From: Cristatella mucedo
Taxonomy: Eukaryota; Bryozoa; Phylactolaemata; Cristatellidae
Length of the DNA stretch: 64,000 nucleotides
Assembly: GCA_009760855.2 (NCBI GenBank)
Contig: WPIO01000016.1
Span: 5,167,001-5,231,000 of the forward strand
Reading direction: 5' to 3'
The translations under genes were made by a program, and so were the position numbers. The notes under the pieces were generated by a model. That model was not told the origin of the DNA. It saw only the letters and a program-made list of their open reading frames with translations, and made no database searches. Below are positions 47,733 through 52,177 of this stretch, piece after piece (within the stretch, counting starts at the first letter, position 1; each line of letters begins with the position of its first letter).

Positions 47733-48050
47733 TTAGAAGTACGATTGTGCGCTCCGTGTCGAGACCGTGAATACCGACGCCGAGGTGGGCACTCGGGTCG
47801 AGCGATGCGTCAACGTCCGTCTCTCGTCGCCGCACGCGAGCACGCGCCTCAGCTCCGCCGCGTGTCTCCTGCTCGTCATGATGAGAATAGCGCCGTCGAA
47901 GAGAGGCGACAACTTGCACGCAGTCGCCGGTATGGCTGTCACCAGCGGCGACACGGCGCCGGCGGCCGAGGCTCCGAATGCCGAATACATGCTGATGACA
48001 GCGTACGGCGTCCAGCAAGTCAGGAACGCCGCGGTGAGGGCGGCAGCGAC
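47733..48050 (-). CDS. Opsin exon 5: TM6, TM7, cytoplasmic tail
   Basis: 105 codons and a TAA stop; acceptor CCGCCGCCGCAG|GTC. Encodes AAFLTCWTPYAVISMYSAFG, IPATACK (retinal lysine), SPLFDGAILIM in place of the NPxxY region, then helix-8-like TSRRHAAELRRVLACG and a Ser/Thr-rich tail of about 30 residues. Lysine-to-helix-8 spacing has no gap relative to rhodopsin. Confidence 0.92.
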   Translation of the reverse strand, partial: VAAALTAAFLTCWTPYAVISMYSAFGASAAGAVSPLVTAIPATACKLSPLFDGAILIMTSRRHAAELRRVLACGDERRTLTHRSTRVPTSASVFTVSTRSAQSYF

Positions 48051-51000: not shown

Positions 51001-52177
51001 CTGCGATGATCGTAATAGTCATGATATTCATAAAACCGAATAGAAAAGATAAGAAGCCGTAGATGCGACACCCTAAAAGAAAGGAATTGGCGATGTACGT
51101 CATCCTTCGTCTAGCCTATTTGAAGCGCTGAGCTCTTTTCTGAAGCGGGAAGGCTAATCAAAAGATAACGAAGATAGCGCTCATTTTGAAATCCATTTAG
51201 CGTATACCCTATGCACATGGGGATCTTTTCAGCGTCTGACACTTCTCAGCGCAGCACCTGATCTCGAACTTGGAATGGAAAGAATGCGAACTTTACGTAC
51301 AGCAAGGCTAAAGCTCGAGCTTCAAAAGTAGCTTGCGTCATTTTAAACCCTTTATTTATTTTTGCAAAAATTTTCCGATGCCTGCGCATCTTTTTTGGAA
51401 TCTTCCATTCTCGCATCTGCGCTCATTACCTTGATCGCCAAATAGCCACGCTTCAGCGAAAAGTGAGGAGACAGCCATCGGGAACGTGGAGAATATTAGA
51501 AGTGTATCGTTGATGCTCATAAAAGCCAGGAGCTCGTCGATCGGCTTGTGGATGTTCCGATTTCTCAAGATGACGGTATTGCAAACGCTCACGCCGCACC
51601 CGAGAAGTCCTGCGAGTAGAGCAGAATCGGCGAACGCTTTGCCAATAGGTTTTTTCGCCTCCCAATCGCTTCGCTCGAAACAAGACGGAAAAATAAGAAT
51701 GCCGGCTCTCTAACAAGGAGTAGCCAGTTTATTCTCAGATCAGCTATACGCTGAGCCAATCGCTCCGCTCCGCTTACCGGCAAAGACTAGAAACACTGCC
51801 AGGCTATACGATTGCCATGTGTCGAGCTTCGATCCAAACTTGTCCGCGAGCAGAGAGTAAGCAGAGAGCGTGGCCACTCCTCCAGGGAGCACCGCAGCCG
51901 CCGCCGATCCGGCGGCTGCGGCTGCGGCGGCGCTCTGCGACTCCATGGCCTGCCGCGCAGGCGTCCCCGACAGACTGGCCGGCTGGCGCGCTAGTGCGCC
52001 TGCCGCCGATCCGAGCCACTCCGCCGTCGGAGCCAATGCGAAGGCCGCCCCTGCGAGTGCGCGTCGGTCGCGTCTCGATGCCCGGCCGCTATCGATCGGG
52101 TCATCGCCAGCGGGTGAATTCGTGACTTTGGCAGCCACGATTTCACAGCGGACACAACCGGCAATCCATCGGCTCAT
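47733..52177 (-). CDS. Opsin (tetraopsin/retinochrome-like GPCR), five exons, non-canonical DRY and NPxxY
   Basis: Seven-helix retinal-binding membrane receptor or photoisomerase. Exons: 52177-51778, 51609-51430, 51072-50965, 50113-49731, 48050-47733; phases 1, 1, 1, 0 agree at all four introns. 462 residues from Met1, or 385 from Met78. Helices are near 124-148, 159-180, 195-219, 238-260, 287-313, 358-382 and 392-416. Visible landmarks: Asp168 (2.50), Cys195 and Cys274 (disulfide), Tyr198 at the TM3 counterion site, Glu268 in GVEPHGTACSIDW (ECL2 counterion), Pro298 and Tyr306 in TM5, CWTPY in TM6, and Lys403 in IPATACK (Schiff base). DRY is Val219-Arg-Tyr; NPxxY is DGAIL (409-413). The helix-8 cysteine and a Ser/Thr-rich tail are present. 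ECL2 resembles retinochrome, neuropsin and Go-opsins, so a Group-4 opsin is favoured. Subclass uncertain. Confidence 0.9.
48335..48580. repeat. GAGAGCAA-type purine repeat in opsin intron 4
   Basis: Degenerate GAGAGAGCAA and GACAGAGCAAGA units, including a roughly 50-bp duplicated block near 48460-48545. In gene sense it is pyrimidine-rich, the opposite of the other intronic tracts. Confidence 0.92.
49044..49250. repeat. 56-bp tandem repeat in opsin intron 4
   Basis: About three and a half copies of a unit containing GCCCCATCGCCGACGCCGAT, CGGCCGCCCCAGAATGC and TTCCCAGATCCCGCTTC. The last two copies are nearly identical. Confidence 0.85.
49731..50113 (-). CDS. Opsin exon 4: TM4, ECL2, TM5, ICL3
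   Basis: 383 nt; acceptor CCCTCCTTGCAG, donor CTG|GTAAGC. Encodes FAFSFVWALLPLV (TM4), YGSYGVEPHGTACSIDW (ECL2), FGFPVTTIACSYAAI (TM5), and a roughly 43-residue Ser/Pro/Arg-rich third intracellular loop ending RHGRECL. Confidence 0.92.
50315..50935. repeat. (CT)n-rich tract in opsin intron 3
   Basis: About 600 bases of CT dinucleotides broken by TTTTCTC, CTAT and CCCTT variants. It occupies most of the 851-bp intron between TM3 and TM4 exons and ends about 30 bases from the TM3 exon donor. Confidence 0.97.
50965..51072 (-). CDS. Opsin exon 3: TM3 and ICL2 with VRY motif
   Basis: 108 nt. Acceptor CCTTTCTTTTAG, donor GCAG|GTATGT, phase 1 at both ends. Encodes CRIYGFLSFLFGFM, then IAVVRYIGICHPAA. 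The distance from the conserved Cys to VRY (24 residues) equals that in vertebrate rhodopsin, so Val sits exactly where Glu/Asp of E/DRY belongs. This exon is too short to stand out as an open frame. Confidence 0.9.
51430..51609 (-). CDS. Opsin exon 2: rest of TM1, ICL1, TM2, ECL1
   Basis: 180 nt. The acceptor TTCTGCTCTACTCGCAG continues TM1 as GLLGCGVSVCNTVIL, then RNRNIHKP (ICL1), FMSINDTLLIF (TM2 with Asp 2.50) and EAWLFGDQ. The usual TM1 Asn of LGN reads Cys (LGC). Donor CAAG|GTAATG. Confidence 0.92.
51778..52177 (-). CDS. Opsin exon 1: N terminus and first half of TM1
   Basis: 133 codons plus one base, ending TTT GCC G|GTAAGC. The last residues SYSLAVFLVFA begin TM1. An in-frame TAG lies seven codons upstream of Met1. 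A second in-frame Met at 51946 (MESQSAAAAAAAG) gives a 56-residue lead to the splice site, nearer the usual opsin N-terminal length. Met1 would give an unusually long, Ala/Arg-rich N terminus. No Asn-glycosylation site is visible. Confidence 0.8.

Follow-up and report, generated by a model that had tools for sequence, protein, structure and literature searches.

An opsin gene without the E/DRY acid and NPxxY, and its tandemly arranged paralogs in the same genome

Structure of the window opsin gene

The analyzed stretch of 64,000 nucleotides, hereafter the window, lies within contig C77 of a 572-Mb assembly comprising 688 contigs. Its minus strand carries, between positions 52177 and 47733, a five-exon opsin gene whose spliced frame is open, stop-terminated and 462 amino acids long; all four introns have GT-AG boundaries, with phases 1, 1, 1, and 0, respectively. 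Exon 1 (51778..52177) encodes the N-terminus and the start of TM1 and ends with FAG in phase 1, with a GT donor and an open frame; there are two candidate start codons, Met at 52177 or at 51948. The remainder of TM1, TM2 with D2.50 (MSIND), and extracellular loop 1 are encoded by exon 2 (51430..51609), and TM3 with C3.25, Y113, and VRY by exon 3 (50965..51072). Exon 4 (49731..50113) covers TM4, loop 2 with Glu268 (E181) and Cys274 (C187), TM5 with P5.50 and Y5.58, and IL3, whereas TM6 (CWTP), TM7, helix 8, the C-terminus and the stop codon are located in exon 5 (47733..48050). Intron 3 contains a 611-bp (TC)n microsatellite (50317..50927, plus strand). An intermediate-filament gene, which we take to be protostome-like in its look, is also found inside the window, and Rfam and tRNA scans of the entire 64 kb returned no matches.

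The spliced protein matches the Pfam domain 7tm_1 (E = 1e-32). Among the best 60 of 442 matches to solved structures, the top relative is squid rhodopsin (E = 8e-30), and bovine rhodopsin is found at about 1e-18. In the alignment, Cys195, Cys274, and Glu268 correspond to bovine positions 110, 187, and 181, respectively, and Lys403 (47913..47915, minus strand), the predicted Schiff-base lysine, corresponds to K296 (7.43). The E/DRY motif is replaced by VRY (residues 219-221; 50990..50998, minus strand) and NPxxY by DGAIL (residues 409-413; 47883..47897, minus strand), and the stretch from the lysine to helix 8 aligns without a gap. Both the architecture of five exons in consistent phase, including the lysine, the cysteine pair and the glutamate, and the two motif replacements had been described by an earlier sequence-only reading of this locus; splicing and alignment bear out the former, translation and alignment the latter. 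Further changes seen in the alignment are P7.50 to Gly, with a proline at 7.46 (Pro406; 47904..47906, minus strand), one helical turn ahead of the missing P7.50, and F8.50 to His; three others, namely N1.50 to Ser or Val, W4.50 to Phe and a non-acidic residue at 6.30, depend on the alignment. Thus, the window gene has the 7tm_1 domain and Lys 7.43 by which opsins are recognized (K403 aligned to K296), and it has VRY and DGAIL in place of the E/D at 3.49 and the NPxxY by which canonical signaling opsins are recognized.

No NPxxY occurs in any frame of the minus strand within positions 46000-54000, and the sole stop-free match to (D/E)R(Y/F/W/C) on the same strand and interval, at 51182, is without TM3-like context. 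With no suitable candidate in this interval, the possibility that an alternative exon supplies either motif was rejected.

Paralogs and other opsins in the same genome

Using the window opsin as a query against its own genome, we identified at least 73 exon-level matches, which are mostly clustered on contigs C441 (2.61-2.97 Mb), C453 (2.88-2.97 Mb), and C581 (1.06-1.17 Mb), plus C244. At least 18 family members, including the window gene, were assembled from five genomic places, 10 of them on C441; the pairing of exons within tandem genes was inferred from their order and distance. In 17 paralogous exon-3 pieces the acceptor is at the same place and the donors are in phase 1. The position of the intron at the start of TM6 (exon 5 acceptor) is likewise conserved among the exon-5 pieces of the paralogs, and the three C441 genes followed further upstream match the window gene in both the position and the phase (1) of the TM1 intron. 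Since the introns are canonical and conserved among paralogs, chance open reading frames or wrong splicing were rejected as a source of the gene model.

TM3 was read in all 18 members, and in no case is the residue at 3.49 acidic: it is Thr in all ten C441 genes, Val in the window gene, Thr, Ala, and Ala in the C453 genes, Met, Thr, and Thr in the C581 genes, and Tyr in the C244 gene. Arg 3.50 is present in 18 of 18 members, and K296, E181, and Y5.58 are each present in 17 of the 17 members read, so the retention of Arg 3.50 and Tyr 5.58 noticed previously in the window opsin is confirmed and extends to its paralogs. NPxxY is absent from 11 of the 16 members fully read there, namely the window gene (DGAIL), C453_2887k (NAAVL), and nine C441 genes with the pattern (N/S)GxI(L/M/V); it is present in the three C581 genes (NPILY) and in two C453 genes (NPILY and NPTLY). 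In the C244 gene, 7.49 is Ser and 7.50 is Pro, the rest of the motif lying outside the piece read. In the NPxxY-less members read, the 7.50 proline is replaced by Gly or Ala. Ten of these 11 carry P7.46, namely the window gene and each of the nine assembled C441 genes whose TM7 was covered; C453_2887k does not. Three further TM7 exons on C441 all encode the lysine; two have no NPxxY, one of these with an upstream stop, and the third is frameshifted at the motif, while P7.46 is present in two of the three and replaced by Ser in the other. The sequence-only reading had named an additional intact paralog, with this locus unexpressed, as grounds for abandoning its interpretation: with respect to NPxxY, five such paralogs exist on C581 and C453, whereas none of the 18 members restores the acid at 3.49.

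The presence of K296 and E181 in every member read indicates that the encoded proteins are most likely retinal pigments. A light-independent or re-purposed receptor with a chemo-, thermo- or mechanosensory role, in which the lysine is simply inherited or forms part of a ligand-binding site, would fit the tandem expansion, which suits chemosensory families, and non-light roles of opsins are discussed in PMC9368030. However, neither of these two residues is needed for such a role, and their presence in each of the 17 members makes it quite improbable.

The four positions 3.49, 7.50, 7.53, and 8.50 are altered jointly across the members read of the subclade that includes the window gene (see below). 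They bear on the idea of an ordinary signaling opsin that tolerates the altered motifs and couples in an essentially normal way. Precedents for altered motifs include a scallop Go-opsin with CRY, a clam opsin whose NPxxY Asn-to-Lys mutant still signaled, according to the text of PMC10788561, and the opsins of Nematostella, most of which have non-canonical residues at 134-136 and some of which, in the ASO-II group, are divergent at NPxxY, as described in the text of PMC10512536. However, the joint alteration of all four positions argues against this idea, and we regard essentially normal coupling as unlikely.

The Nei-Gojobori dN/dS medians among the C441 genes are 0.14 for exon 3 (45 pairs), 0.28 for exon 4 (45 pairs), and 0.20 for exon 5 (36 pairs), and no pair exceeds 1, undefined ratios being left out; these values show that the genes of the C441 cluster are under purifying selection. 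Comparison of the window gene with the C441 exons gives pN below pS in 19 of 19 cases, with pS near saturation. The three C581 genes are near-identical, and with so few changes dN is not clearly below dS (0.06 vs. 0.09 in exon 4); in one exon-3 pair, dN (0.069) is above dS (0.039). Some members of the C441 cluster are broken, with an in-frame stop in C441_2871k, a stop in L064, and a frameshift in L065, as would be expected if the window opsin, too, were a decaying gene or pseudogene. Its five intact exons, canonical splice sites and conserved key residues, together with C441 dN/dS ratios well below 1, argue strongly against this reading, which we consider very improbable.

The same genome encodes other opsins on contigs C518, C676, and C255, of which not every gene was read through. 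DRY is present in all five of their TM3 exons (three on C518 and one each on C676 and C255), and the lysine together with NPxxY in all four TM7 exons (C518, two on C676, and C255). Opsins with normal motifs coexist with the derived family in this genome. At the C518 and C676 loci, the first exon runs to just past TM4, and a separate C518 piece begins in extracellular loop 2. Searches of the genome with squid rhodopsin and OPN5, in which the best candidates were scored, gave distant matches only (best 3e-17 with 34% identity over TM1-TM4, and best 6e-18 with 35% identity over TM1-TM4, respectively); on the basis of these best candidates alone, we take the genome to have no canonical r-opsin or neuropsin. 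In the COX1 gene of the assembly's mitochondrial contig, the codons AGR, ATA, TGA, and AAA stand for Ser, Met, Trp, and Lys in 11, 12, 15, and 2 instances, respectively, an invertebrate mitochondrial code that presumably excludes echinoderms, vertebrates, tunicates, and cnidarians, with AAA as Lys presumably excluding rhabditophoran flatworms.

Phylogeny and order of motif loss

In addition to the 18 family genes, the full tree contained three opsins from elsewhere in the genome, ten reference opsins, and MT1. The trees take one melatonin-receptor row as their root, which places the separation of opsins from other class A receptors beyond their scope. The 18 genes form one clade (support 100/99), in which a subclade of 12 genes, including the window gene, is supported at 98/98, or at 92/91 (not starred) when the motif columns are dropped. 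TM7 was read in all of the twelve but C441_2871k, and the loss of NPxxY in the subclade therefore covers 11 genes. On the tree built without the motif columns, parsimony gives two losses of NPxxY and three losses of the 3.49 acid; a single clade of the twelve and the three NPxxY-keeping C581 genes is not rejected (AU p 0.149). Since all 18 members are without the acid, and the loss of NPxxY is confined to the subclade while five members outside it keep the motif, the acid was probably lost first and NPxxY later.

Grouping of the twelve genes with RGR was rejected by the AU test both with (p 0.010) and without (p 0.006) the motif columns, and so was grouping with retinochrome (p 0.008 and 0.003, respectively); membership of the twelve in either class was accordingly rejected, the rejection being due in part to the splitting of the 18-gene clade that such groupings impose. 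For the entire 18-gene clade, a position beside RGR (p 0.289), retinochrome (p 0.278), or RRH, RGR and retinochrome together (p 0.167) was not rejected. Even in such a position, the five NPxxY-keeping members would stand between the twelve and RGR or retinochrome, so that by parsimony the loss of NPxxY would again count as a separate event.

These tests bear in part on the earlier suggestion of a possible photoisomerase: they reject a grouping of the twelve with RGR or retinochrome, and they do not reject the 18-gene clade as a sister of either. An enzymatic role would agree with the loss of motifs, which resembles that of RGR, with GRY at E/DRY, and of retinochrome; moreover, the bovine RGR row has lost P7.50 and has P7.46, and its His at position 113 is found in five C441 genes. 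However, R3.50 and Y5.58 are present in all members read, whereas position 5.58 of squid retinochrome is Ile. RGR carries NAxxY in place of NPxxY, according to the text of PMC9368030. The approximately dozen tandem genes are also unlike molluscan retinochrome, which "rarely" duplicates in the wording of PMC10733189, and look more like a sensory expansion, which argues against photoisomerases. Altogether, we consider a photoisomerase function rather unlikely.

OPN5 is favored as the sister of the 18-gene clade in three of the four trees, weakly supported at 76/75 with all rows and columns, at 82/82 once the motif columns are dropped, and at 89/81 once the rows of RGR and retinochrome are removed; the first of the four trees left the sister group open. 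The AU test rejected neither the scallop Go-opsin (p 0.32) nor the r-opsins (p 0.27) in this position. The family is probably one of neuropsin-like tetraopsins. This class assignment serves as a lead, because the reference opsins were mostly not database records and OPN5 is represented by one row; the grouping among genes of the same genome depends little on the reference rows.

Proposed activation mechanism and relation to known opsin classes

As the best explanation of these data, we lean, with somewhat better than even confidence, toward a lineage-specific family of retinal-binding sensory opsins, probably tetraopsins near Opn5, with a rebuilt activation switch. Its ancestor would have been a tetraopsin, the branching point most likely lying close to neuropsin (Opn5). 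Judging from the conserved residues, retinal would be bound via K296, with E181 as a counterion, and the proteins would be light-sensitive. Loss of the acid at 3.49 is expected to loosen the lock of the inactive state, and loss of P7.50, Y7.53, and partly N7.49 to remove the usual rearrangement of TM7, while R3.50 and Y5.58, which are partners in the active state, stay. Light would still move the helices via the rebuilt switch, and coupling, whether the partner is a G protein or not, may be altered toward easy or constitutive activation or be non-standard. A sensory role appears most likely in view of the retention of R3.50 and Y5.58 and of the constraint and tandem arrangement of the C441 genes. 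The residue pattern and the tandem multiplication point less to pure enzymes than to receptors whose switch has been rebuilt.

The sequence-only reading had proposed unusual or absent G-protein coupling for the window opsin. This proposal is reasonable as a prediction, and it is strengthened because both motifs are absent from a whole constrained subclade rather than from a single gene. Caution against inferring function from motifs is advised by the clam NPxxY mutant mentioned above and by the authors of the Gluopsin study, who, in PMC9368030, contest the status of RGR and retinochrome as established photoisomerases. More speculatively, these genes may be bilaterian tandem photoreceptors that detect light by means of retinal and no longer use the switch formed by the ionic lock and NPxxY, and in which the TM7 hinge has been displaced from P7.50 to P7.46, one turn nearer to the Schiff base. 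Photoisomerization might then be linked to a partner that is constitutively poised or other than a G protein, in convergence with RGR; we offer this scenario tentatively and consider it doubtful as a whole.

For RGR and retinochrome, it is a matter of debate (PMC9368030) whether an opsin devoid of E/DRY and NPxxY can signal and whether the absence of these motifs is the mark of a photoisomerase. The genome described here contains a graded series, from normal opsins through acid-less opsins with NPxxY to opsins in which both are absent, so that the steps can be tested in related proteins. Altered motifs are already known in RGR and retinochrome, as stated in the text of PMC8628405 and PMC9368030; in the open-access text searched, we saw no bilaterian tandem family that is without both the acid and NPxxY and keeps the lysine.

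Among the known opsin classes, neuropsin resembles the window opsin in K296, E181, Y113, and P291 ahead of the lysine, in addition to being the favored sister; however, the OPN5 row has DRY and NPIIY, unlike the VRY and DGAIL of the window opsin. The scallop Go-opsin SCOP2 shares K296 and, in its CRY, a non-acidic 3.49; however, it keeps NPxxY and is not the favored sister. The HPK tripeptide of r-opsins is replaced by SRR in the window opsin, and the 18-gene clade is placed outside the r-opsin clade in the tree. We place c-opsin intron 2 within extracellular loop 2. A xenopsin assignment was rejected on gene structure alone, since xenopsins have two conserved introns, of which the first is near c-opsin intron 2 (an intron they have in common according to PMC5648526), and exon 4 of the window gene spans IL2 to IL3 intron-free. 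Clade B of flatworm xenopsins is similar in keeping the lysine, and in the text of PMC6805122 its members are without the helix-8 tripeptide and a photoisomerase role is suggested for them. The Nematostella cnidopsins and ASO-II opsins provide a parallel as an expanded family with non-canonical residues at 134-136 and, in some members, an altered NPxxY; however, they are cnidarian, whereas in COX1 of the present genome AGR stands for Ser and ATA for Met.

Retinochrome is similar to the window opsin in keeping the lysine and having an altered NPxxY, and it differs in the rejection of its grouping with the twelve (AU p 0.003-0.008); the squid protein retains ERY and the 7.50 Pro and has lost N7.49. 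RGR is alike in that both motifs are altered, and the bovine row keeps R3.50 and Y5.58 and has Ala at 7.50; no close RGR match was found among the best 60 of 270 PDB matches. The window opsin has Ala 292, with Pro at 291, and the RGR row has Ala at 292 too, so that either this row or the rule that chromopsins carry Pro at 292 (7.39) is not clean. That rule, which the window opsin fails, is given in the text of PMC9368030. The window opsin further differs from RGR in the additional loss of Tyr 7.53 and in having Gly at 7.50, and the twelve group apart from it (AU p 0.006-0.010). The swap of P7.50 for P7.46 is nevertheless common to the window opsin, nine C441 genes and the bovine RGR row; should this parallel be borne out, a specific trade-off in structure would be indicated.

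Intermediate-filament gene and repeats in the window

Besides the opsin, the window carries an intermediate-filament gene, two exons of which match Pfam Filament on the minus strand (26003-26593, 4.8e-12; 31611-32138, 2.1e-17); the gene resembles those of the protostome cytoplasmic type. The reverse-transcriptase fragment at 7694-8167 on the minus strand (Pfam RVT_1, 3.8e-7) is a retrotransposon remnant. Two mutually similar open frames, at 7076-7486 on the minus strand and 43580-43981 on the plus strand, are probably copies of a single repeat; a Pfam search of the latter frame returned no match. 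The 15-bp repeat TCAGATTTGAGTCGA, present in ~19 copies at 47199-47485, forms an array located ~250 bp 3' of the opsin stop codon. The window is also rich in further tandem arrays and (CT)n tracts.

Mitochondrial contig

Contig C688 of the same assembly (21 kb) is mitochondrial, with COX3, ATP6, COX1, and ND3 encoded in this order, all on one strand; COX1 was identified via Pfam, and the other three genes were called by eye. One stretch of this contig occurs twice, its copies lying in opposite orientation.

Opsin genes elsewhere in the assembly

Paralogs of the window opsin constitute a tandem cluster of ~12 genes that occupies both strands of contig C441 at 2.61-2.97 Mb. Among those assembled, five have Tyr at site 113 (bovine rhodopsin numbering), the residue of the window opsin, whereas the other five have His, and these variants possibly correspond to spectral or functional classes. 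A separate group of opsins, encoded on contigs C518, C676, and C255, carries both DRY and NPxxY. On C518, a loop-2 piece is located in a separate exon, perhaps representing a putative xenopsin-like gene structure.
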